Positions 1,061 through 17,841 of a stretch of DNA of 35,999 nucleotides are shown here, piece by piece; position 1 is the stretch's first letter; the number at the start of each line of letters is the position of its first letter. The position numbers and the translations under genes are program-made. The DNA lies in assembly GCA_018241185.1 (NCBI GenBank), contig JAFEEH010000130.1:1-35999 (forward strand). The letters run 5' to 3'. The stretch comes from Pseudomonadota bacterium. GTDB taxonomy: Bacteria > Pseudomonadota > Gammaproteobacteria > Burkholderiales > Burkholderiaceae_C. The notes beneath the pieces are model-generated. The model searched no databases, was not told the DNA's origin, and saw nothing but the letters and a program-made list of their open reading frames with translations.

Positions 1061-1140
1061 AGGAACGCCATTTTACACACTGTGTTTAATATTTCAACAT
1101 GGTGTTTTCACGCGGCGTTTAAGTGAGGCACAATGGCGTC
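1061..1140. promoter_or_regulatory. cI/cro divergent control region with two operators
   Basis: Leftward cro promoter: -35 TTGAAA (complement of 1092-1097), a 16-bp spacer, and -10 TAAAAT (complement of 1070-1075). Two related 11-bp sites, CACACTGTGTT at 1076-1086 and AACATGGTGTT at 1096-1106, have centres 20 bp apart, about two helical turns. The first fills the cro promoter spacer. They are the likely CI/Cro operators. A GAGG at 1125-1128 may serve translation of cI. Confidence 0.6.
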
Positions 1141-1524
1141 ATGCACCCCACGATCGAGCGCCTCATCAAGTTCGTGTACACGGCGTCAGGCATGCCGCCA
1201 AGCACCCAGCAGATGCTGTCCGCCCTGGGGGTATCGGCGGCAACCATGTCTAACTGGAAGACGCGCGGGATGTCGAAGGAAGGCGCACTACGCGCCGAGG
1301 CGGTCTACGGGTGTTCAGCCCATTGGCTGCTGACGGGGGAAGGGCCGGAGCAGGCGCATGCGGTCGGTTCGGCGGCACCGGTGGAATCGTGGCCATTCCG
1401 CCGAATCGACTACGCCAAGGTGAAGGCGCTCTCCCCTGCTCGGCTCGCAGAACTGGAGACGGCGGTGCTGATCGCGGCCGGGCATTTGGGGCTGGATGTC
1501 CGGGAATCGGACGACCGGCGGTAG
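1141..1524 (+). CDS. CI-like phage repressor without peptidase domain
   Basis: A 127-residue protein. Residues 1-70 form a CI-type helix-turn-helix (LSALGVSAATMSNWKTRGMS) followed by GALRAEAVYGCSAHWLLTGEG, the usual end of that domain in CI-like prophage repressors. The remaining 55 residues hold a short WPFRRIDY segment and a helix. The LexA/S24 self-cleaving peptidase domain of lambda CI is absent, so RecA-stimulated autocleavage is not expected and induction should need another signal; the antirepressor at 5866 is a candidate. The ATG at 1141 is preferred over the in-frame GTG at 1123 because the helix-turn-helix begins just after it. Confidence 0.75.
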   Translation: MHPTIERLIKFVYTASGMPPSTQQMLSALGVSAATMSNWKTRGMSKEGALRAEAVYGCSAHWLLTGEGPEQAHAVGSAAPVESWPFRRIDYAKVKALSPARLAELETAVLIAAGHLGLDVRESDDRR

Positions 1525-3369: not shown

Positions 3370-4039
3370 GGACCCGCTTGTACCACCGCTTGCACGACTG
3401 CACGGCATGCCTGAAGAACTACCCGACGTCGAGGCGCGGCGCGGCACCTCCAACCCCATCGCCGAGGCAGGCTCAGTTCTCGGCGCCCTCATCGAACTCT
3501 GGAGCGAATGGTTTCCAGAGCAAGACTTCCTGCAGAAATTTTTCAAGCCCATGTGGGACGATGAGAAGACCTCAGGAAGCGACCAGGTCGACCAGATTCG
3601 GGAGATCGAAGAACTGAAGGACTGGAACGGCGCCCCAATCACCGCCGCCGAGCGCGACGCGTTCGTCAAGATCGCCTTACTCATGGCGGCATGCGCGTTT
3701 GCGGTACAAGCCATGAAGGCTCCGAAGAATTCCTCGGCCGCATGGACCTATGCCATCGATGCGTCTAGATGGCTCGGCATCCTGCAGGGGTTTCACTCTG
3801 GTGTTGGTCGGGGCACCGCTGCCAGCGAGCTGGCGCGGCGCGGTGCAGACGCCGCGCACGCAGAGAATCGCGCGATGAAGGCGCTGGTCATTCAATGGTG
3901 CGACGACAACATGGCCGCGTTCCGCAGTATGGATGCCGCTGCACAGGCAATCGCTGGGACGTTGGTGCCCGTGACCTTTCGCACCGCGCGCGATTGGATC
4001 GGCGCCTGGAAAAAGCTACGGTCTGCCGGCAAACCGTAG
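3368..4039 (+). CDS. Prophage protein, function unknown
   Basis: Up to 223 residues. Candidate starts are ATG 3368, a later in-frame ATG at 3407 (MPEELPDVEARRG) and an upstream TTG at 3356; none has a good Shine-Dalgarno. The 3407 start would leave about 38 bp between this gene and the divergent gene at 3369. The protein looks mostly helical and soluble, with a hydrophobic helix IALLMAACAFAVQAM near the middle and a C-terminal FRTARDWIGAWKKLRSAGKP. No family recognised. It lies in the accessory stretch between cI and the Arc-gene block. Confidence 0.5.
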   Translation: MDPLVPPLARLHGMPEELPDVEARRGTSNPIAEAGSVLGALIELWSEWFPEQDFLQKFFKPMWDDEKTSGSDQVDQIREIEELKDWNGAPITAAERDAFVKIALLMAACAFAVQAMKAPKNSSAAWTYAIDASRWLGILQGFHSGVGRGTAASELARRGADAAHAENRAMKALVIQWCDDNMAAFRSMDAAAQAIAGTLVPVTFRTARDWIGAWKKLRSAGKP

Positions 4040-4344
4040 GCTCTGCAGGCACACCGGACGGGCGGCCGGCAAGCCGCTTTCACACACGACCCTGAGCGAC
4101 GAAAGTACGGACAGTCGCTCGTCTCAGCGACTTTCCAGTTACTCAAAAGTCGCCGATGAATCCCTCGCTTTCGTCCCGTCGCAGCCCTACCGTTGAGGGC
4201 ATGCACACGCGTCGGAAAACGTCAGACGAAAAGCAGACAGTCGCGGGCTTCCAATATTTCGAAGAGGCCGCGACGATGCGCGGCATGAAGATGCTGTGCG
4301 CATCGGTCAACAAGGAGTTCGAGTCCAGTGCCGTGGGTGCGATG
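4040..4344. other. Gene-free stretch with a hairpin
   Basis: No convincing gene is seen in these 305 bases. A perfect 7-bp hairpin AGTCGCT / AGCGACT (4113-4132, loop CGTCTC) followed by TT may be a weak terminator for the plus-strand gene before it. The words GAGCGACGAAAGT and CAGCGACTTTCC around it are related in inverted orientation. A plus-strand open frame from 4156 runs on antisense through the Arc-type gene and is rejected. Confidence 0.4.
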
Positions 4345-4764
4345 TCAGCGCTTCTTTTTTTTAGCGACTCGTTTCATGGGGGCCGCAGCCTCGCCGCCAA
4401 CCGTCCCGGGCCGATCGTGCCAAGCGGGTGGCCCACCGGAAATGTCACTCGTCGGCTCTCCGTCCTCGTACTGCCGGAAAAGTTGAGCAAGGACGAACGC
4501 GTGTTGCAGGCTCTGAGCAAGTTCACTGAACAGCTCTTTCGGCGTGCGCTCCGTCATCTCTCCAGTTGCATCAAAGCTCCGCACTATGCGCGGTGCCGGA
4601 ATGTACCCGTCAGGCACTACCAAGGCCTTTTCCAGCAGCGAAATCAACTCAGCGTTGTAGCTGCGTCCACTCGCTTTCGCCGATTCATGCACTTTGGCGT
4701 GCAGTTCCGGCGGCAACCTCAGGGCAGTCTTGATGAAATTGCTCTGATCGATGGATGTAGCCAT
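4345..4764 (-). CDS. Arc-family ribbon-helix-helix repressor with C-terminal extension
   Basis: A 139-residue protein. Residues 8-48 are an Arc/Mnt ribbon-helix-helix domain: a strand KTALRLPPELH, helix A KVHESAKASGRS, then YNAELISLLEKAL. The RLPPEL...SYNAE signature matches the Arc family of phage P22. The 90-residue extension ends in the basic run KRVAKKKKR. ATG 4764 begins directly before the domain, but the GGAGG before it is only one base away, so translation may begin differently. It is divergent from the Arc-type gene at 4860 across about 95 bp of repeats, and probably controls itself, its neighbour and the downstream antirepressor block. Confidence 0.72.
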   Translation of the reverse strand: MATSIDQSNFIKTALRLPPELHAKVHESAKASGRSYNAELISLLEKALVVPDGYIPAPRIVRSFDATGEMTERTPKELFSELAQSLQHAFVLAQLFRQYEDGEPTSDISGGPPAWHDRPGTVGGEAAAPMKRVAKKKKR

Positions 4765-4859
4765 GCCTCCATCATAGTCCCCACTGTCCTGTCGGAATTG
4801 CCTCCATTGTGGAGACATGGCTCTATGATGCCTTCATGCCTCCATGATGGGGACTCAAT
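4763..4859. promoter_or_regulatory. Operator region of the first divergent Arc pair
   Basis: Three direct copies of GCCTCCAT occur at 4765-4772, 4800-4807 and 4838-4845 (35 and 38 bp apart). An inverted pair CATCATAG (4770-4777) / CTATGATG (4823-4830) spans the interval, and CCATGATGG at 4842-4850 is nearly palindromic. The size and repeat density fit binding sites for ribbon-helix-helix repressors acting on both promoters. The repeats overlap the start of the leftward gene. Confidence 0.5.
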
Positions 4860-5048
4860 ATGAGAGCCGCGACTCAGATAAATTTTGTGAGAACAGCGCT
4901 TCGGCTACCGCCGGACTTGCATCGCGAAGTGCACGAATCGGCGCGAGAGAATGAGCGAACTTTCAACGGCGAGCTTATCCATCAACTCCGGCTGGCGTAC
5001 AGCCGCGATCCTCGCCCCATTGAGCGGCAACCGGAGGGTCGGCTGTGA
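4860..5048 (+). CDS. Small Arc-family ribbon-helix-helix protein
   Basis: A 62-residue protein that is essentially only the DNA-binding domain: strand FVRTALRLPPDLH, helix REVHESARENERT, then FNGELIHQLRLAYS. It is clearly related to the protein at 4345-4764 (TALRLPP, LH.EVHESA, F/YN.ELI), so the divergent pair looks like an ancient duplication. ATG 4860 has GGGGA seven bases upstream. Its stop lies 5 bp from the end of the convergent Arc-type gene at 5054. The layout recalls arc/mnt of the P22 immunity-I region. Confidence 0.72.
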   Translation: MRAATQINFVRTALRLPPDLHREVHESARENERTFNGELIHQLRLAYSRDPRPIERQPEGRL

Positions 5049-5053
5049 CGGCG

Positions 5054-5590
5054 CTATTCGCCGCCGGCGTGGGACCGGCGAAGCGACTTGGCCGAAGCCC
5101 AGGGATGGGGCTTTTGCAAGTTGTGCAACTGCACAACGCGTTTTGCCAAGGTCTCAATTTCCGTCGTCGTCAGCACCGAGGTCAGCGGCAGCGTCTCTAC
5201 GATTCGACTGAAATAGCTTTGCCGCTCTTCCTCTGTCCCTTGAATTCGAGGGCCACTGATGCCTTTAGCGAGTTCGGCCTTCGACGCGCTGATCACCGCT
5301 TCCCGACCCCCGAGATCCTCGACGCGCCGTCGGAGCAGCATCAGTTCATCGAGCAGCATCGCCTTGAGGATGGCCGCCCTATCGCGCGGATCCGAAAGCC
5401 CAATGGACACACCGATGCGTTGTTCACTGGTGGACGCCTCGTCTTCCGAGTCGAAGGATCCCTGCAGGCGATAGAGCAGTTCCGCGTGAAGGCTGCGACC
5501 GCTTGCCGCCGCAGCCTCCTGCACTCTTGCCTTCAACTCGTCCGGCATCCTCAAAGGGTAGCTTGGTGCTTGGTGTCGGTCTGTCGCCAT
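5054..5590 (-). CDS. Arc-family ribbon-helix-helix repressor with long C-terminal domain
   Basis: A 178-residue protein. The N-terminal ~50 residues match Arc: SYPLRMPDELKARVQEAAAA then SGRSLHAELLYRLQGSF. About 125 further residues look helical and charged, with a likely coiled-coil DELMLLRRRVEDLGGRE; this may mediate oligomerisation or antirepressor sensing, which is conjecture. ATG 5590 starts just ahead of the domain. It is divergent from the 57-residue Arc-type gene at 5675, repeating the long(-)/short(+) organisation of 4345-5048. No family match for the C-terminal part. Confidence 0.7.
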   Translation of the reverse strand: MATDRHQAPSYPLRMPDELKARVQEAAAASGRSLHAELLYRLQGSFDSEDEASTSEQRIGVSIGLSDPRDRAAILKAMLLDELMLLRRRVEDLGGREAVISASKAELAKGISGPRIQGTEEERQSYFSRIVETLPLTSVLTTTEIETLAKRVVQLHNLQKPHPWASAKSLRRSHAGGE

Positions 5591-5674
5591 AGCCAGATTG
5601 TGGACATCAAACAGAATCTCATCAAAGAATCTAATTGACATCCACGGACTGAGAATCTAAATTTCATCCACAGC
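5591..5674. promoter_or_regulatory. Operator region of the second divergent Arc pair
   Basis: AGAATCT occurs three times in the same orientation at 5613-5619, 5626-5632 and 5652-5658, with offsets of 13 and 26 bp (1x and 2x the same period). The region is bordered by an inverted pair TGTGGA (5599-5604) / TCCACA (5667-5672), whose flanks (cATcaaa and tttcAT) also agree. These repeats differ from those of the first Arc pair, which suggests that the two pairs have separate DNA specificities. Confidence 0.5.
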
Positions 5675-5848
5675 ATGAACACGACGAAGCAAATTAACCC
5701 GACGCCCGTGCGGCTGCCGCCTGAGCTCAAAGTGTGGCTGCAACACGAAGCAGTCGACCGGGAAGGCGGGAATCTGAACCGCGAGATCGTGCGGCGCCTT
5801 CAGCAGTCCCGCGAGCGGCAACTCGCGGCCCAGCAACCCAGCAACTAA
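5675..5848 (+). CDS. Small Arc-family ribbon-helix-helix protein
   Basis: A 57-residue protein, MNTTKQINPTPVRLPPELKV followed by WLQHEAVDREGGNLNREIVRRLQQSRERQ. The PVRLPPELK strand, helix A and NLNREIVRRL helix B are the Arc-type ribbon-helix-helix. No Shine-Dalgarno precedes the ATG. The stop is 17 bp before the antirepressor ATG, so the two probably share a transcript, the order expected if this protein limits antirepressor expression as Arc does for ant in P22. Confidence 0.7.
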   Translation: MNTTKQINPTPVRLPPELKVWLQHEAVDREGGNLNREIVRRLQQSRERQLAAQQPSN

Positions 5849-5853
5849 CCCGG

Positions 5854-5865
5854 GAACCCTAGCAA
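5854..5865 (+). promoter_or_regulatory. 12-bp direct repeat abutting the antirepressor start (copy 1)
   Basis: GAACCCTAGCAA ends on the base before ATG 5866. An identical 12-mer precedes the next gene at 6607-6618. It contains the rare CTAG word. Here there is no normal Shine-Dalgarno, so the site could be an operator, a translational control site or remnant duplication. Confidence 0.4.
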
Positions 5866-6552
5866 ATGACCGTCAACATCACCATCGCGTCGCGCCAGAT
5901 CGGCGACGACCTGACGCCCACCGTCAACGGCCGAGACCTCCACGCCGAACTCGGCGTGAAGAAGGACTTCACCGACTGGATCAAGGCGCAGATCAAGCGC
6001 GCCATGCTCGTGGAGGATCGCGACTACGTGAAGGTCCCCCAGAAGGGGGAGCTTTCCGCTACCGGCCAAGTGCGCCACGACTACCACCTCACCATCGAGG
6101 CATCGAAGCACATCGCCATGATGAGCGGAACAGCGCGCGGCGCGGAGGTTCGGGAGTACTTCTTGGAGTGCGAGCGCCGGGCCAAGGCGGCCGTGCCCGC
6201 GGTGAAGGATCCGCGCACCGCCGCCCTGATCGATGCGCTCGTCCGTCAAGACGCGCTCGAACAGGAGCAGGCCCGCCAAGCCACCGAGCTGGCCAGGCTG
6301 CAGGAGAACGTCGCGGTCATCGAGGCGCGCACGCAGCCCGAGAACAAGCACTTTACGGTGCTCGGCTATTCCAACCTGATCGGGCGGCCCGTCGACGCTC
6401 GCACGGCGGCCAACCTCGGCCGCAAGTGCGCCGCCCTGTCGCGCGAGAAGGGCCTGATCATCGGCGACGTGCGCGATGCGCGCTTCGGCACCGTGCACAG
6501 CTATCACGAGAGCGTTCTGCAGGAGGTGCTGGCCACGGCAACGAACTCCTGA
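5866..6552 (+). CDS. AntA/AntB-type phage antirepressor
   Basis: A 228-residue protein. Residues 10-107 match the AntA/AntB antirepressor domain: TVNGRDLHAELGVKKDFTDW, then EDRDYVKV, HDYHLTIEASKHIAMMSG and EVREYFLECERRAK. A helical linker (about 120-155) leads to a C-terminal domain with FTVLGYSNLIGRPVD, AANLGRKCAALSREKG and RFGTVHSYHESVL, a domain common at the end of prophage antirepressors. Such proteins inactivate phage repressors and so trigger lytic growth. Four Arc-type genes lie immediately upstream and the window's CI lacks a cleavage domain, which supports a role as the induction switch. The start has no usual ribosome-binding site. Confidence 0.8.
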   Translation: MTVNITIASRQIGDDLTPTVNGRDLHAELGVKKDFTDWIKAQIKRAMLVEDRDYVKVPQKGELSATGQVRHDYHLTIEASKHIAMMSGTARGAEVREYFLECERRAKAAVPAVKDPRTAALIDALVRQDALEQEQARQATELARLQENVAVIEARTQPENKHFTVLGYSNLIGRPVDARTAANLGRKCAALSREKGLIIGDVRDARFGTVHSYHESVLQEVLATATNS

Positions 6553-6564
6553 ACCACAAAAGGC

Positions 6565-6596
6565 GAAGCCCCGACGGCGGCAACCGACGGGGCTTC
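6565..6596 (+). terminator. Terminator-like hairpin after the antirepressor
   Basis: GAAGCCCCG (6565-6573) pairs perfectly with CGGGGCTTC (6588-6596). Only a short, interrupted T tract follows, so termination may be partial and the downstream genes may be reached by read-through. Confidence 0.5.
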
Positions 6597-6606
6597 TGTG
6601 ACCCAA

Positions 6607-6618
6607 GAACCCTAGCAA
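6607..6618 (+). promoter_or_regulatory. 12-bp direct repeat upstream of the 410-residue gene (copy 2)
   Basis: GAACCCTAGCAA is identical to 5854-5865. Here it is followed by GGAACCCGAATC and ATG 6631, giving a usable AAGGAA ribosome-binding site that the first copy lacks. Confidence 0.4.
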
Positions 6619-6630
6619 GGAACCCGAATC

Positions 6631-7863
6631 ATGACCGAGGTTAGCACGCGCCCACGTAAGGGCGCAACAACGGTAGCAAAGACCGCTACACCTGTCACCT
6701 CTTCCGCTACACCCGTTGCGGCGCCCGCGCCCGTCGAGGACCACGCCGCCGAGATCGCGTATGCGGAGGTCGCCGAGTTGTTGGACCAGGCCGCCGCCGA
6801 GGAAGGCCCCGAGGTCTACAGCGGCGAATCGGAGCGGCTGCTCCGAATGGGCGCGACCTTAGCCCGTAAGTTCGTGATCGGCGACCGCGATCACGAAGAG
6901 AGTGCCGAAAACTTCGCTTACGACATTGCGGCCCTGGTCCGCGCGTCGCGGCTGGTCCCTGGCGACGGTGAGTCCAAGAAACGCGCCGAGTTGCTGGAGC
7001 AGTGCGAACCGATTCTGCGCTCTCTGGTCGACGACAAAAGCGAGTCCATGTTCAAGCCGCTCGCCGCCCGCCCTCGACTGGACAACCACTGGGCGCCACC
7101 GACCATGGCCGCCAAGGTCGTCGGGGAGATGCGCCAGCACGTCCGCAACGCCGAGGAGTGCCAAGCATTGGCGCGCATCGCGATGACCGAGATCTGCGAA
7201 GCCATCTCCAACGCCAAAGGGCTGGCAAGTGGCATGGAGCCGGGTTCCGACCAGCACGCCTTGGTCCTGCACGCTGTCGCTCTGCTGGAAGCGCTGCCCC
7301 TGCGCGCCCTGAACGTCGGCACCACCCAGGAGGACGCTGAGGCTGTCTACGAAGGCATGCTGCTTCCGCTGGCCGTTCTGCGCGGCGCCGTTGCTTGTGA
7401 CGCCCAAACGAATGGCGCGCTGGCCGCGGTGGTGCGACAGGCCGACATCGCTAACAGCTCGCTCGACAGCGTACTTATGCAGCACCTGCCGCATGCCGAG
7501 TCCGAAGACGCACCCCCAACTCCCGATGAGAATGCGATCGCAGCCGCCGAGAACGTTCAGTGCCTGCTTCAGCAAGTCGAAGCGCTGCTGGATCAGGAGT
7601 CGTACAGCTCGGATGCTTTCTATGGGTGCCGCCGCTTGGTTCAGCAGGACAAGGAGCAGGCCGACGCGCTGATGGTGGATGCCCATACGCCGCCCACCCG
7701 GGACGCCATGTCCGACCTGACGTGTTCCATGGGCGTGTCTTTGGCAGTGCTCAAGAAGGTGAACGACGACACGACCGGCAATCTGGTCCTGCACTCGGCG
7801 GAAACTCTGCTTGGACTGGCTATCGATCGACTCGACGCCGCAGTGAGCGCGATGCCATGCTGA
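6631..7863 (+). CDS. Large helical prophage protein, function unknown
   Basis: A 410-residue protein with AAGGAA eight bases before the ATG. Residues 1-37 are a Thr/Ala/Pro-rich disordered-looking leader. The rest reads as all-alpha, with three loosely similar blocks ending in hydrophobic helices such as ALVLHAVALLEALPLRAL and NLVLHSAETLLGLAIDRLDA. That suggests degenerate helical repeats, perhaps a scaffold or binding protein. There is no signal peptide, membrane helix or recognisable catalytic motif. Its end overlaps the RNase HI start by 7 bases (ATGCTGA), so the two are translationally coupled and may act together. I do not recognise the family. Confidence 0.6.
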   Translation: MTEVSTRPRKGATTVAKTATPVTSSATPVAAPAPVEDHAAEIAYAEVAELLDQAAAEEGPEVYSGESERLLRMGATLARKFVIGDRDHEESAENFAYDIAALVRASRLVPGDGESKKRAELLEQCEPILRSLVDDKSESMFKPLAARPRLDNHWAPPTMAAKVVGEMRQHVRNAEECQALARIAMTEICEAISNAKGLASGMEPGSDQHALVLHAVALLEALPLRALNVGTTQEDAEAVYEGMLLPLAVLRGAVACDAQTNGALAAVVRQADIANSSLDSVLMQHLPHAESEDAPPTPDENAIAAAENVQCLLQQVEALLDQESYSSDAFYGCRRLVQQDKEQADALMVDAHTPPTRDAMSDLTCSMGVSLAVLKKVNDDTTGNLVLHSAETLLGLAIDRLDAAVSAMPC

Positions 7864-8306
7864 ACATCTACACCGATGGCAGTTGCTGGCCCAACCCCGG
7901 CACCGAAGGCGGGTGGTCGTTCGTCGTCTATGACCAGGGGCGCGAGGTTGCTGCGCGTTCGGGCAAGGCCGAGGGCTTCACCTCCAACAACCGGATGGAG
8001 ATGACGGCAATGCTGCGCGCCCTGATGTGGCTCGGCGACCGCCACGCCACCCTCCACACGGACAGCCAGCTCGTCGTCTACGGCCTCAACTCCTGGGCCC
8101 GGAAGTGGATGCGCAACGGCTGGATGCGCAAGGACAAGGTCACCAAGCAGATGGTGCCGGTCCTGAACGCCGACCTCTGGGAGGTACTGATGGTCGCCCG
8201 GATGGCGCAGCACCGGGTCGTGTGGGTGAAGGGGCACGCCGGCATTTTGGGCAACGTCCGGGCTGACGCGCTGGCCGAGGCCGCGCGCATGGGGGTGGCC
8301 GCATGA
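7857..8306 (+). CDS. rnhA: Ribonuclease HI
   Basis: A 149-residue protein that hydrolyses RNA in RNA:DNA hybrids. All the RNase HI catalytic residues are visible: D7 in IYTDGSC, E48 in NNRMEMTA, D69 in LHTDSQ, H127 in VKGHAG and D137 in RADALA. The basic stretch WARKWMRNGWMRKDK corresponds to the handle region that helps bind the hybrid. The length is that of the bacterial type I enzyme. The ATG overlaps the upstream stop. As a phage copy it may remove primers or R-loops during replication; the host should have its own rnhA elsewhere, so this one is probably phage cargo. Confidence 0.9.
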   Translation: MLNIYTDGSCWPNPGTEGGWSFVVYDQGREVAARSGKAEGFTSNNRMEMTAMLRALMWLGDRHATLHTDSQLVVYGLNSWARKWMRNGWMRKDKVTKQMVPVLNADLWEVLMVARMAQHRVVWVKGHAGILGNVRADALAEAARMGVAA

Positions 8307-8628: not shown

Positions 8629-8871
8629 ATGACCCGCTGGATCACCATCGACAAGGCCGAGCAGGAGACGGGCCTTCCTGCCACCTTCTTCCACGAGCGC
8701 ACAGGAGTCTCCGGCACCTGGCCTGAGGGTAAAGTCTGGAAGTGGTTCGACGGGCGCAAGCTCATCGACCTGGAGGCGCTGTACGAGTTGATCGACCAGC
8801 GCCCGAGCATCGCCAGCAAGAGAGGCCGGAAGCCGAAATGGCAAGGCGCCCAGCAAAGCCAACCGGCGTAA
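8629..8871 (+). CDS. Excisionase-like DNA-binding protein
   Basis: An 80-residue protein, MTRWITIDKAEQETGLPATF then GTWPEGKVWKWFDGRKLIDLEALYEL. The pattern of a short helix, a wing built around a Trp-rich EGKVWKW segment, and a D-G-R-K-L-I-D-L-E finish is that of the small excisionase-like proteins encoded just before integrases of the Min27/DUF3596 type. GGAG lies ten bases before the ATG. The reading frame overlaps int by 34 bases, which implies coupled expression. It should bend DNA at the attachment site and steer recombination towards excision. Confidence 0.72.
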   Translation: MTRWITIDKAEQETGLPATFFHERTGVSGTWPEGKVWKWFDGRKLIDLEALYELIDQRPSIASKRGRKPKWQGAQQSQPA

Positions 8872-9944
8872 TCGTCCGCGACGCTCACCTGCAGATCGAC
8901 CTTCGTACCTACGGCTTCGGCAAGGAGCGGCTAGACCTCGCTCCGACGCCGGCCAACATCGCCTATGCCCAGCGGCTGCGGAACGAGATCCTGGGGAAGA
9001 TCGAGCGGGGCACGTTCGCACTGGCCGAGTACTTCCCCTCCAGCCCCAGGAGAAGCAAGGACGCGCCGAGCCTGACCGTGGGCGACCTGGCGCGCGAGTG
9101 GCTGAAGGTGAAGAAGGCCACGGTGAAGCACAGCACGGCCCACCACTACGAGCAGACCATCACCAGCAAGCACTTCGCCGAGGTGGACGGGATGCTGCTC
9201 GGGAACTTCGGGTTCCGGCAACTGCAGGACGCCCTGTCGAAGCTGCCGAAGAACCCGAAGACCTTCAACAACATCGCCACGGTCTGGCGGCAGATGCTGG
9301 AGTACGGCTTTCGCGCCAAGCTGGTGGCCGAGCCCCTGCACGACAGCGTGGAGATGCGGAAGTCTCAGCCCCCGGGGCCAGATCCGTTCACGCGGGAAGA
9401 GATCGCCCAGGTGCTGGCCAAGATCACCAGCGAGCGCGGGCGCAACTACTTCGACTTCGCCTTCTTCTCGGGCATGAGGCCGTCGGAGCTGATCGCGCTC
9501 AGGTGGAGCCGGATCGGGGACGGGACAGCGTCCGTGGACAAGGCGCTGACCCGCGGCCAGGAGGGGGAGGTTAAAAACTATCGGGCCAGGCTGGTCGAGC
9601 TCACGTCACGGGCGACGGATGCGCTGGAGCGGCAGCGTGCCATCACCGGCGAAGGCACGCACGTTTTCGTGGGGGAGGATGGCAAGCCCTACACCACCAC
9701 GGACGGCCCGCTAGACGCGTGGTGGAAGCCAGCCATTGCGGCCAGCGGCTTGAGGTATCGGGATGCCCGGCAGACGCGGCACACGTTCGCGACGATCTGC
9801 CTGATGGGAGGCATCACGCCTGGCTGGGTGGCCCGGCAGATGGGGCACTCGCCGGAGATGTTCTTCCGGGTCTACAGCCGGTGGATCGAAGGCGCGGACA
9901 AGGGGGCGGAGCGGAGAAAACTGGACCGCTTTCTCACAATGTAA
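8838..9944 (+). CDS. int: Tyrosine-recombinase phage integrase
   Basis: A 368-residue protein. Residues 1-60 match the arm-type DNA-binding (DUF3596-like) N-terminus, with IDLRTYGFGKERLDL. A core-binding domain follows at about 78-170 and the catalytic domain at 185-360. Catalytic residues visible are R214 (SGMRPSE), R314 (ARQTRHTFA), H337 (QMGHSPE) and the nucleophile Y346 (RVYSRW). The first His of the usual HxxR box is replaced by R311, as often in this subfamily. The ATG at 8838 lies inside xis and starts the recognisable domain. It probably integrates at the tRNA-Arg 1.4 kb downstream. Confidence 0.92.
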   Translation: MARRPAKPTGVIVRDAHLQIDLRTYGFGKERLDLAPTPANIAYAQRLRNEILGKIERGTFALAEYFPSSPRRSKDAPSLTVGDLAREWLKVKKATVKHSTAHHYEQTITSKHFAEVDGMLLGNFGFRQLQDALSKLPKNPKTFNNIATVWRQMLEYGFRAKLVAEPLHDSVEMRKSQPPGPDPFTREEIAQVLAKITSERGRNYFDFAFFSGMRPSELIALRWSRIGDGTASVDKALTRGQEGEVKNYRARLVELTSRATDALERQRAITGEGTHVFVGEDGKPYTTTDGPLDAWWKPAIAASGLRYRDARQTRHTFATICLMGGITPGWVARQMGHSPEMFFRVYSRWIEGADKGAERRKLDRFLTM

Positions 9945-10194: not shown

Positions 10195-10920
10195 TCAGCG
10201 GGTTGATCGAACGATGCTTTCGACTTCTGCGACTGAATATCTGAGCGGTGAGGCGTGGTTCAAGTCAGACACGTTCGCCAAGTACCGCCGGTTCGTGCCA
10301 TCGATGTCCTTCAAGAGTACATCAACCTTTATGGCGTTCCCGAACTTTACCTTCAAAGCATTAACCACATTTCGGGATTCGAAAAACTGTTGCACAAATC
10401 GGTCACCCGGAATGCGCCTGCCCTCTGTGAGCTCTCGATCTTGAACAAATTTCCAGGCCAGCGCCGGCTCTTGGTAGACGTACAAAACTTGAACGGCCCG
10501 GCCCTTCCGGATGCTCCGCTCCACGTTGCGCTCGGCGACGCCGTAGCTGGACATAGTTCCATCAAGCAAGAACGACTGTTTCTGCTCAAAGGCGAAGTCC
10601 AGTACCTTCTCAAGAAGGATTGAAACTGCATCTTGCACGAGCCAGGAGTTCGCACCCGTGTATCCCGGCACTGAGGCGCGGAACTCGTCTGGGTCAATCC
10701 GAAGAAACGGGCCGACCTCGCTCGCCAGCGCCTTCGCGGCCTCAGTCTTCCCCGCGCCGGGTGAGCCCGCCATGAATACGCTTACCGGCGAGTTTTCACC
10801 CGGGTATTTTTCTGGCTGGGTCAGCGCCCGAGCGAACGCCTTCTTGTTCTTTCGGGCCCAAGCGACTGCCGCATCGCGTAGAGCAGCATCCGCGGCTGAC
10901 AGTGGCGGCAACGTTGCCAC
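10195..10920 (-). CDS. Zeta-toxin family kinase
   Basis: A 241-residue protein. A Walker A motif GSPGAGKT (52-59) is followed by the Zeta-type RIDPDEFR (74-81), LLDGTMSSYG (118-127) and an arginine-rich EGRRIPGDRF (166-175) lid. These are the hallmarks of Zeta/PezT enzymes, which phosphorylate UDP-N-acetylglucosamine and related sugars and so poison cell-wall synthesis. The first 45 residues, before the kinase fold, are helical and could act in cis. The start is a GTG just after the stop of the upstream gene. It is the middle gene of a leftward three-gene unit between int and the tRNA. Confidence 0.82.
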   Translation of the reverse strand: MATLPPLSAADAALRDAAVAWARKNKKAFARALTQPEKYPGENSPVSVFMAGSPGAGKTEAAKALASEVGPFLRIDPDEFRASVPGYTGANSWLVQDAVSILLEKVLDFAFEQKQSFLLDGTMSSYGVAERNVERSIRKGRAVQVLYVYQEPALAWKFVQDRELTEGRRIPGDRFVQQFFESRNVVNALKVKFGNAIKVDVLLKDIDGTNRRYLANVSDLNHASPLRYSVAEVESIVRSTR

Positions 10921-11325: not shown

Positions 11326-11362
11326 TGGTGCCCCCGACAGGAATCGAACCTGTATCTGCCCC
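11326..11362. other. Probable phage attachment site at the tRNA 3' end
   Basis: The tRNA 3' half marks the junction between phage-type genes on the left and conserved chromosomal genes on the right. Tyrosine integrases commonly use this part of a tRNA as the core. No second copy of the sequence is visible at 1-11325, so the other attachment site must lie left of the window. The exact core length cannot be set from one copy. Confidence 0.6.
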
Positions 11363-11400
11363 TTAGGAGGGGGCCGTTCTATCCATTGAACTACGGAGAC
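11326..11400 (-). tRNA. tRNA-Arg (anticodon CCT)
   Basis: The complement folds as a full cloverleaf: acceptor GTCTCCG / CGGGGGC, a D arm GTTC/GAAC, anticodon stem GCCCC/GGGGC with loop CTCCTAA (anticodon CCT, reading AGG), T arm ACAGG/CCTGT with loop TTCGATT, discriminator A and encoded CCA (11326-11328). Its 3' end faces the prophage, the usual orientation for integrase-mediated insertion at a tRNA. Confidence 0.95.
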
Positions 11401-11476: not shown

Positions 11477-12244
11477 CTACTCTTTCGATAGCACCCCACC
11501 GCCTTCGCGCAAGGCCAGCACGTCGGTATGGAGCGACTGGGCCCAATGCCGGCGGTCGCGGCCATGCGGGTCCTGCGGCACACCGAAGCGCACCACGGCC
11601 TGCAGGGGTGGCGCGCTCAGCGTGCGCCAGAGCGAGCTGAGCAGCGTGTCGTCGTCGATGTAGCGTGGCGCGTAGCTCGGCTGGCCGCTCGCCTTGTCGA
11701 CGAAGCGCAGCGCCGCCGGCTGCACGGGCACGTTGGCCGAGATGGCGGCCTGCAGCAGGTTGGCATGGAAGGGCAACAGCACGCGGCCGTCGCTCGTCGT
11801 GCCTTCGGGGAAGACCGCGATGCGGTCGCCGTTGCGCAGCGCCTCGGTCATGTGGTGCACCACGCGCAACGCGTCACGGCGCTTCTCGCGTTCGATGTAG
11901 AGCGTGCCCGACCCGGTGGAGAGCGTGCCGATCAGGGGCCAGTGCCTCACCGCTGCCTTGGAGACGAAGCGTACATGCCGCGCCGCATGCAGCGTGACGA
12001 TGTCAAGCCAGGAGATGTGGTTGCAGATCAGCAGCACGGGCCCGCCCGCGGGACCCGCGGGCGGCGTGCCCTGCACGACGAGCTCGATGCCCAGCACTTC
12101 GAGCATGCGCCTCGCCCAGCGCTCGACATGCGCGGCGCGGTGCGCGTCGTCGAGCATCTCGAACTTCGTGCGGATGATCCACCAGCCGCGCAGTGCGTGC
12201 GCAACGGCCCGCAGCAGCTTGCCCAGGGCGCGGAGGAATCGCAT
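11477..12244 (-). CDS. 1-acyl-sn-glycerol-3-phosphate acyltransferase (PlsC family)
   Basis: A 255-residue protein that transfers an acyl chain to lysophosphatidate or a related lysolipid at the inner membrane. The HX4D catalytic motif is NHISWLD (H76, D81), and the acceptor-binding motif is FPEGTTSDG (145-153). A hydrophobic N-terminus (residues 1-24) should anchor it to the membrane. ATG 12244 is chosen because the upstream extension is Arg/Ala-rich and overlaps the preceding gene. It is the last gene of the leftward yqgE-ruvX-pyrRBC' cluster, 32 bp after pyrC'. The acceptor substrate cannot be told from sequence; it could be an ornithine-lipid or lysophosphatidate enzyme. Confidence 0.85.
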   Translation of the reverse strand: MRFLRALGKLLRAVAHALRGWWIIRTKFEMLDDAHRAAHVERWARRMLEVLGIELVVQGTPPAGPAGGPVLLICNHISWLDIVTLHAARHVRFVSKAAVRHWPLIGTLSTGSGTLYIEREKRRDALRVVHHMTEALRNGDRIAVFPEGTTSDGRVLLPFHANLLQAAISANVPVQPAALRFVDKASGQPSYAPRYIDDDTLLSSLWRTLSAPPLQAVVRFGVPQDPHGRDRRHWAQSLHTDVLALREGGGVLSKE

Positions 12245-16286: not shown

Positions 16287-17841
16287 GCCGCCGATTTTAC
16301 TGGCCGTCGACAAGACCTACCCCAAGGGCCTCATGTGGTTTCGCCGCGACCTGCGGGCGTACGACAACGCGGCGCTCTACCACGCGCTGCGCAGCTGCCG
16401 GCAGGTGCTGTGCGTGTTTGTGTTCGACACGGCCATCCTCGATGCACTGCCCGGCCAGGACGCGCCGTCGGGCGACGACGGCCTGCGCGCCGACCGCCGC
16501 GTGGAGTTCATCCGTGAATCGGTGCTGGCCTTGCGCGAAAAGCTGGAGGCGATGGGTGGCGGCCTGATCGTGCGCCATGGCTGCGCCGAGGACGAGATTC
16601 CCGCTCTGGCCCACGCACTGGACGTGCAGGCGGTGTTCGCCAACCGCGACGACGAGCCGGCCGCGCTCGCACGCGACGCACAGGTGTTTGGCGGCCTGGC
16701 CAATGCCGGCGTGAGCTTCCAGACCTTCAAGGACCAGGCGATCTTCGACCGCGACGAGGTCATGACGCAGGCCGGCGCGCCCTACACCGTGTTCACGCCC
16801 TACAAGCGCGCCTGGCTCGCCAAGGTCGACGATTTCTACCTGCGGGCCTACCCCATCGACCGCCATGCCGACGCGCTGGCGCCGGCGCCCGAGGGCCTCC
16901 GGGGGGCAGTCCCGTCGCTGCAGGCCATGGGCTTCGCGCCCACCAACCTCGGCGAGCTGGAACTGCCGCCTGGCACCGAAGGCGGCGCCAGACTGTTCGA
17001 GGGCTTCTTCGAGCGCATCGACCGCTACCACGTCGCGCGCGACTACCCGGCGGTGCGCGGCCCCAGCTACCTCGGCGTACACCTGCGCTTCGGCACGCTG
17101 TCGATCCGCGAGCTGGCCGGCACGGCCCACCGCCTTGCGCTCGGCGGTAACCAGGGCGCGGCCACCTGGCTCAGCGAGCTGATCTGGCGCGACTTCTACT
17201 TCCAGGTGCTCGCGCATCGGCCGGACGTGGCCGAGGGCAAGAGCTTCAGGCCCGAATACGACCGCATCACCTGGCACCACGGCAAGCATGCCGACGGCCT
17301 GTTCGCCGCCTGGTGCGCCGGGCGCACCGGCTACCCGCTGGTCGACGCGGCGATGCGGCAGATCAACGAGACGGGCTACATGCACAACCGGCTGCGCATG
17401 GTGGCCGCAAGCTTCCTGTGCAAGGACCTGGGCCTGGACTGGCGACGCGGCGAGGCCTACTTCGCCAATCACCTGAACGACTTCGAGTTCTCGTCCAACA
17501 ACGGCGGCTGGCAATGGGCCAGCTCGAGCGGCTGCGACGCGCAGCCCTACTTCCGCATCTTCAACCCGGTGACGCAAAGCGAACGCTTCGACCCCGAGGG
17601 CAAGTTCATCCGACGCTACGTGCCCGAGCTGGCGAAGCTGCCCGACAAGCTGATCCACGCGCCCTGGCTGGCTGCGCCGCTGGAACTGGAGGCCGCGGGC
17701 GTGACGCTGGGCGAGCACTACCCCAGGCCGGTGGTGGACCATGCCGAGGCGCGGGAGCGCACGCTGCAACGCTACGCCGTCGTGCGCAGTACAGCCCCTG
17801 TCGGCAAGCCAGCAGCACGCAAGACGCTACAAAAAACATAG
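16285..17841 (+). CDS. phrB: Deoxyribodipyrimidine photolyase
   Basis: A 518-residue flavoenzyme that uses blue light to split cyclobutane pyrimidine dimers. The N-terminal cofactor-binding domain begins GLMWFRRDLRAYDNAAL. The FAD domain shows EFSSNNGGWQWASSSGCDAQ and MRMVAASFLCKDLGLDW-like segments (here LRMVAASFLCKDLGLDWRRG). All class I landmarks are present. The start is uncertain: ATG 16285 coincides with the yqgE start, while an internal ATG at 16333 lies just before the conserved core. The last residues KTLQKT and the TAG stop come from the dispersed hairpin repeat, so the tail is not conserved protein. Confidence 0.92.
   Translation: MPPILLAVDKTYPKGLMWFRRDLRAYDNAALYHALRSCRQVLCVFVFDTAILDALPGQDAPSGDDGLRADRRVEFIRESVLALREKLEAMGGGLIVRHGCAEDEIPALAHALDVQAVFANRDDEPAALARDAQVFGGLANAGVSFQTFKDQAIFDRDEVMTQAGAPYTVFTPYKRAWLAKVDDFYLRAYPIDRHADALAPAPEGLRGAVPSLQAMGFAPTNLGELELPPGTEGGARLFEGFFERIDRYHVARDYPAVRGPSYLGVHLRFGTLSIRELAGTAHRLALGGNQGAATWLSELIWRDFYFQVLAHRPDVAEGKSFRPEYDRITWHHGKHADGLFAAWCAGRTGYPLVDAAMRQINETGYMHNRLRMVAASFLCKDLGLDWRRGEAYFANHLNDFEFSSNNGGWQWASSSGCDAQPYFRIFNPVTQSERFDPEGKFIRRYVPELAKLPDKLIHAPWLAAPLELEAAGVTLGEHYPRPVVDHAEARERTLQRYAVVRSTAPVGKPAARKTLQKT

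Follow-up and report, generated by a model that had tools for sequence, protein, structure and literature searches.

The immI region of phage P22 (mnt-arc-ant) is a textbook switch, known mainly from one phage group. Its genes run mnt(-) arc(+) ant(+), that is, a longer ribbon-helix-helix (RHH) gene on the (-) strand, a short RHH gene on the (+) strand and a co-directional antirepressor gene, with operators between the divergent promoters. According to one account of the system, Mnt is the repressor of arc and ant, and Arc in turn represses mnt (PMC11016777). Here we analyzed a complete contig of 35,999 bases (JAFEEH010000130.1, henceforth the window; number 34 of 269 in a 5.3-Mb genome), in which positions 4345-6552 hold RHH genes in the order (-)A1 (+)A2 (-)B1 (+)B2, followed by ant, an AntA-type antirepressor gene. 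A first-pass annotation had described four RHH genes of alternating strand and length that end 17 bp before an AntA/AntB antirepressor, in an immI-like layout; open reading frames (ORFs), Pfam and profile searches confirmed the genes, and their order matches that of P22. The stacked arrangement is real and recurring and is of the P22 immI kind, and the stack itself is rare. Judged from sequence, A and B are very probably two distinct P22-immI-like units that behave as exchangeable cassettes. The whole reading, in which two stacked switches of different specificity are wired together as proposed below, appears reasonably probable.

The locus departs from its closest described relatives in several respects. 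P22 immI consists of a single unit in which one Oarc and one Omnt are annotated, whereas the window has two units with three copies of one operator each, its operators being assigned from sequence anatomy. P22 Ant consists of P22_AR_N and P22_AR_C domains, whereas the window Ant is of the AntA type, and the long proteins of the window carry longer extensions than those of P22. P22 also has the antisense RNA sar; at the B2-ant junction of the window the gap is 17 bp, and no sar-like promoter was found, with no (-) strand promoter-like site in 4200-6700 in a scan that a weak promoter could escape. The A pair is followed by the convergent B1 and has no antirepressor of its own; it forms an incomplete immI that may act like an immI repressor pair. 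The orphan mnt region of phage L is similar, being described as a Mnt homologue without its own arc or ant (PMC8022706); unlike phage L as portrayed in that source, the orphan A unit keeps long and short genes as well as operators, and it stands ahead of a complete second unit. Neither stacked immI units nor exchange of RHH/operator cassettes was found among the open-access papers searched, as judged by title and the opening of the abstract, most subscription papers lying outside this scope. We regard the cassette nature and the operator correspondence as the most useful outcome: P22 immI logic recurs as an exchangeable cassette in Burkholderiales prophages and IMG/VR viral contigs, placed before six antirepressor-type domain families.

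Genes and predicted operators of the two units

A1 lies at 4345..4764 on the (-) strand and encodes 139 amino acids from the likely ATG (the longest ORF has 157), and A2, at 4860..5048 on the (+) strand, encodes 62 amino acids. A2 converges with a 5-bp gap on B1, which occupies 5054..5590 on the (-) strand (178 amino acids; longest ORF, 195). B2, at 5675..5848 on the (+) strand, encodes 57 amino acids, and ant (5866..6552, (+) strand, 228 amino acids) begins 17 bp after it. A1 and B1 are the long RHH genes, in the Mnt-like position, and A2 and B2 the short ones, in the Arc-like position. A1, A2 and B1 scored above the Pfam cut-off for Arc. B2 had no Pfam match and was recognized as RHH by custom profiles (E values of 1e-16 and 9e-15, with B2 itself in the seed both times); its PHROG matches were of the Arc type, at 1e-5 and weaker. 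The profile of 28 RHH sequences recovered the solved Arc and Mnt. Ant matched AntA (PF08346) at 74.9 bits against a cut-off of 27 over residues 20-87, and its C-terminal half lies outside the Pfam match, yet is conserved among 16 aligned relatives.

Each divergent pair had been noted to possess its own repeat set. Across the whole window and on both strands, GCCTCCAT occurs only at 4765, 4800 and 4838 and AGAATCT only at 5613, 5626 and 5652, and all three copies of each fall in the two divergent promoter regions, in agreement with that observation. The A sites are best described as CTCCA-N3-TGGAG-like dyads at 4767, 4802 and 4840. The predicted operators are OA1 (CTCCATCATAGTC, 4767..4779), directly upstream of the A1 start and found as the same site in the related loci L018, L109 and L150-L153; OA2 (CTCCATTGTGGAG, 4802..4814); and OA3 (CTCCATGATGGGG, 4840..4852), upstream of the A2 start. 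Three elements of 20 bp, AGAATCT-N6-CATCCAC, make up the B sites; they lie at 5600, 5626 and 5652, with a spacing of exactly 26 bp, a register that is also exact in L037, L038, L040 and L116. Predicted OB1 (5600..5619, (-) strand) is an inverted, imperfect copy of this element. Predicted OB2 (5626..5645) and OB3 (5652..5671), both on the (+) strand, overlap the -35 and the -10, respectively, of a sigma-70-like promoter for B2-ant (TTGACA-17-TAAATT, 5635..5663, (+) strand, 10/12 match); promoter-like sites number 2 in 2.5 kb, against 0.4 expected. In 400 dinucleotide shuffles, the best match of the A or B region to its own motif was never equalled, but because both motifs were derived from these two regions, the fair test is that in other loci.

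No multi-site A or B operator arrays beyond the two in the window were found in the host assembly. A lone perfect CTCCATGATGGAG dyad, the A-operator consensus, lies at 11496-11512 of G000 contig 142, with no further copies nearby. SOS control was considered through the LexA box, CTGT-N8-ACAG. With up to 1 mismatch, the window holds 8 LexA-like sites where 10.2 would arise by chance, a number not above chance; one of these sites covers 5581-5596, where B1 starts.

Operator class and RHH class among related loci

Searches with ant yielded L001-L035, comprising loci from 8 of 399 family genomes (the window's own included), 8 genome-contig loci and 19 viral-contig loci, some of which are one place recorded twice. 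Among the 34 loci L002-L035, a divergent RHH pair was present in 16, with two pairs in L018; a short RHH gene stood alone before ant in 4 (L003, L019, L023 and L027), and no RHH gene was detected by profile in 14. With 16 of 34 loci carrying it, an RHH pair upstream of ant is therefore common, not universal. The 28-domain RHH profile had matches in 128 of the 399 family genomes at E 1e-4 or better. The first set for comparison combined 40 stretches from the RHH-profile survey with L002-L040, L063 and L073 after L012, L021, L022 and L031, judged to be duplicates, had been dropped, giving 77 loci plus the window, of which 16 lacked an RHH gene. It held 44 divergent pairs, 2 of which were sequence duplicates, leaving 42 distinct regions from 40 loci; contig identity was judged by identical promoter regions, in this first set only. 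A later A-type domain scan gave 18 loci: one was L018 again (L149), five had no pair, and 12 added 13 pair regions. The upstream pair of L153 includes a short gene recognized only at E 1e-2. The resulting 52 pair-bearing loci are not a random sample.

For each of five RHH classes, the operator motif was taken from one region and the remaining regions were held out. The class motif was present at no more than 1 mismatch in 14 of 15 held-out regions and at 2 in L028, versus 0 of 190 off-class comparisons at no more than 1 mismatch and 15 of 190 at 2. The RHH classes were drawn up after several test regions had been seen, and later regions form the fairer test: all 6 regions fetched after the motifs had been noted (L104, L109, L113, L116, L129 and L133) matched at no more than 1 mismatch, and the later A-type loci L150, L151, L152 and L153 showed 1, 2, 1 and 0 mismatches. 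Moreover, operators agree in four RTALR loci while the short genes there have different strands, which argues that operators follow the long protein. For the most part, operator family thus tracks the RHH subtype of the long protein. The suggestion made in the first-pass annotation, that the two pairs differ in DNA specificity, is supported as a prediction by the operator class mostly matching the RHH class. As the operator class should often be predictable from the RHH subtype, antirepressor-level heteroimmunity (which lysogen silences whose antirepressor) becomes directly testable.

What lies downstream was scored for 26 distinct pairs found independently of ant, using Pfam matches above cut-off in genes up to 700 bp past the short gene, where there was a usable ORF; the AntA loci stem from the ant searches and were excluded from this count. 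An antirepressor-type domain was found downstream in 16 of the 26 pairs: Bro-N in six (L038, L040, L116, L119, L122 and L135), P22_AR_N in four (L117, L118, L129 and L134), Rha with or without KilAC in four (L104, L105, L110 and L131), ORF6N in one (L037) and KilA-N in one (L133). A-type pairs outside the window stand ahead of an AntA gene in L152 and an ORF6N gene in L153; in L151, one small ORF separates the pair from a Bro-N gene. RHH pairs were therefore found before six domain families, namely AntA, Bro-N, ORF6N, P22_AR_N, KilA-N and Rha.

Several results weigh against so general a correspondence. A sixth class, YTRITLR (motif from L011), which was absent from the five-class test, fits less well: L111 has 3 mismatches in 14 positions, ranking second of 42 regions after the training region, and L135 has 6, and with this class counted, 14 of 17 held-out regions match at no more than 1 mismatch. 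Near-members of the B class, counted as off-class, show 2 (L110), 2 (L114) and 4 (L122) mismatches. L154 and L161 combine KTALR with the CTTCA motif, and a strict K-versus-R residue code for the operator, which these two loci break, was rejected as too strict; L151 is closer to CTTCA (1 mismatch) than to CTCCA (2). The B operator matches also partly reflect general DNA homology (73-79%). As to the downstream genes, 10 of the 26 pairs have no antirepressor domain above cut-off: L111 is followed by a weak Rha match below it, L138 and L140 precede a CII-type regulator, no Pfam match was found downstream of the pair in L039, L109, L114, L132 and L136, L112 had no ORF to scan, and a short ORF in L113 was left unscanned. 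Among A-type pairs, the gene after that of L109 has no Pfam match, and the pair of L150 has, by reading, no adjacent antirepressor-like gene.

Some variants of the pair were seen in these loci. HTH_3 genes (Pfam; HTH, helix-turn-helix) stand divergent from or beside a short RHH gene in L109 (1570-2148 and 2191-2451, in reverse-complement coordinates) and in L121 (2950-3384), which looks like a further kind of immI-like unit, with an HTH protein in place of the long RHH protein. RHH domains joined to GIY-YIG (L015, 3474-3911) or to T5orf172 (L027, 4303-5196; L028, 4681-5133) were found beside antirepressors.

Cassette structure, stacking and the role of the A unit

By blastn against 18 loci, the DNA of the window matches its relatives in separate blocks. 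These are the upstream gene (3488-4052); the A cassette (4649-4972), common to L018 and L109; the B cassette, of which L037-L040 share about 5438-5685 and L116 shares 5532-5732; and ant plus flanking DNA (5705-6669), common to many loci. Each of the A and B blocks runs from the long-RHH domain across the operators into the short gene, of which it takes in the start or the RHH part; the extensions lie outside the blocks. The block had been called duplicated in the first-pass annotation. This did not hold: A and B are separate cassettes, each closer in DNA to cassettes of other phages, and they share no long repeat; local duplication of one pair was rejected accordingly. Each cassette also has relatives that stand alone in other phages, several of them before an antirepressor gene, so the stack arose by recombination. 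Between the window and L018, the proportion of synonymous differences (pS) is 0.80-0.81 for the A cassette and 0.52 for ant; as the A cassettes are the more diverged, the stack was evidently not simply inherited along with ant. The ratio of nonsynonymous to synonymous differences (pN/pS) in the A RHH domains is about 0.24-0.43 between the window, L018 and L109, and these domains look selected.

The long C-terminal extensions had also been proposed as sensors, a claim that found no support. When 54 sequences (duplicates included) were compared all against all, at least four families of extensions turned up on clearly different RHH types: one in L002, L018 A1 and L038; one in the window's B1 and L029, which differ in RHH type; one in L011 and L039; and one joining L109 with L009 and L063. 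Most other extensions were singletons. Extensions are therefore interchangeable between RHH subtypes. Relatives of the B1 extension were found in 2 of 379 genomes, one being the window's own. The A1 extension has a Lys-rich end and no relatives were found for it; whole-A1 relatives in viral contigs came to 1 locus, a 25-residue match within a sugar-epimerase-looking protein. Both structure models are of low confidence, with a mean predicted local distance difference test score (pLDDT) of 59.8 for A1 and 45.6 for B1.

Besides the window, L018 and L153 have stacked RHH pairs, making 3 of the 52 pair-bearing loci; the four-gene order sought elsewhere thus recurs, in L153 with a gene between the pairs. 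In L018, the A pair is homologous to that of the window, the B pair and B operators are different, and A2 and B1 converge with 44 bp between them (5 bp in the window). In L153, another pair lies upstream of the A pair, and the A pair of L109 is preceded by an HTH_3 gene and a short RHH gene. Among the matches listed in two 399-genome RHH surveys, which score a limited number of candidates and can miss short genes, only the genome of the window has four RHH matches within 2.5 kb; G268 and G376 have three.

By analogy with P22, we infer that B would switch ant directly. B1 (Mnt-like) would fill OB1-OB3 in the lysogen and close the TTGACA-TAAATT promoter, keeping B2 and ant off; on a fall in B1, B2 (Arc-like) and ant would be made, B2 would limit both B promoters once ant is on, and Ant would inactivate the main repressor of the prophage. 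A1 may keep the A2 promoter closed, as B1 would in the B unit. If A opened, a (+) strand transcript could run antisense through B1 into B2-ant; silence of ant would then require both A1 and B1, giving two independent ways in. An A2 transcript could cross B1 and reach ant because the A2 and B1 stops lie 5 bp apart with no recognized intrinsic terminator: a crude pattern scan found none on the (+) strand at 4354-6552, and a pattern scan of the A2-B1-B2 stretch of L018 likewise found none. A terminator-like hairpin with a T-run at 4335..4353 ((+) strand), recognized by pattern only, would stop upstream (+) strand transcripts before the A unit; the scan found 2 such patterns against 2.4 expected in shuffles. 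We propose this read-through from A2 into ant tentatively. To be set against it are the crudeness of the terminator scan, possible Rho-dependent termination, and the A2 promoter, which has a poor -10 at 17-bp spacing, a similar element recurring in L150-L152. A decayed A2 promoter was not kept as a firm reading, because the window has CTCTATGAT while a CTCTATCAT-like element recurs in other loci (L150 and L152, with CACTATCAT in L151).

The A unit, lacking its own antirepressor, has three candidate roles: a second input antisense through B1, extra superinfection immunity, or none as a remnant. The last would make it an older immI cassette whose antirepressor was lost when B and ant recombined in, with no role in ant control. 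No antirepressor follows A2, and its stop sits in GTGA, a context resembling the 4-bp overlaps (offset -3) by which many short genes run into the next gene. The pS values of about 0.80 and 0.52 given above point to separate histories of the parts; in the P22-like phage L, an mnt homologue persists as an orphan, with neither arc nor ant, and is described by the authors as a possible remnant (PMC8022706). However, both A frames are intact with RHH domains that look selected, the three A operators are still recognizable, and the same orphan stack stands in L018 with a different B unit, and we consider a leftover possible but rather improbable. Extra superinfection immunity, in which A1 of the prophage would shut the antirepressor promoters of incoming A-type phages and two immI classes would be covered, we judge unlikely. 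Stacks are rare (3 of the 52 loci, a sample that is not random), and the A-type phages may have another host, although one paper states that Mnt blocks arc and ant synthesis by superinfecting P22 (PMC7549136), the viral contigs L151, L152 and L153 have A-type operators before antirepressor genes, and a further multi-site A array is absent from the host assembly. It is hardly credible that unrelated RHH genes, antitoxins for instance, came to lie in a row beside an antirepressor by chance: RHH proteins abound and PHROG labels are noisy ("partition protein ATPase" being one of them), but the divergent pairing is precise, the operators are common to relatives, the pair layout occurs in 52 loci, and antirepressor-type genes lie downstream of 16 of the 26 unbiased pairs.

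The two stacked immI-like switches make the locus a natural test case of whether two specificities act on one antirepressor. A wider generalization, which we offer with considerable doubt, is that temperate phages might collect immI-type RHH/operator cassettes serially, keeping the earlier pair as an added immunity specificity or a second, independent trigger of the same antirepressor. The immunity class would then be determined by the match between RHH domain and operator, which is largely readable, and would pass between phages in a block of roughly 200-320 bp, independently of the extension and antirepressor type.

Neighbouring genes and further observations

Upstream of the stack, 884-1524 holds a divergent pair: a YdaS/Cro-like gene, whose Pfam matches are below cut-off, and a gene for a CI-type HTH protein of 133 residues. 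The latter, at 1123..1524 on the (+) strand, is the candidate primary repressor, and no peptidase domain was detected in it. Short repressors of the CI-HTH kind without a peptidase domain are described as antirepressor-controlled in Gifsy prophages in one report (PMC10448788), and the CI-type HTH protein is a possible target of the window Ant. A SocA/Panacea-domain protein is encoded at 1667-2230, beside these candidate primary immunity genes.

Downstream of ant, 6631-7863 encodes a 410-residue protein that matched nothing in Pfam at E up to 1 and nothing in PHROGs or NCBIfam at E up to 0.01. The right end of the prophage is visible in the window: RNase H (7860-8306), an excisionase-like gene (8629-8871) and an integrase (8844-9944) are followed, past a zeta-toxin-like gene, by tRNA-Arg (11326-11400). 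The zeta-toxin-like kinase, between the integrase and tRNA-Arg, lies at 10195-10920. The 3' end of tRNA-Arg (11326-11360) has a 35-base copy, 94% identical, at 16644-16678 of G000 contig 176, which sits among non-phage-looking genes and is perhaps the other attachment site or the scar of another element. Finally, the long protein of L017 (2672-3511) has an Arc domain at residues 2-44 and a weak RHH-type match at 50-73, and may contain tandem RHH domains.

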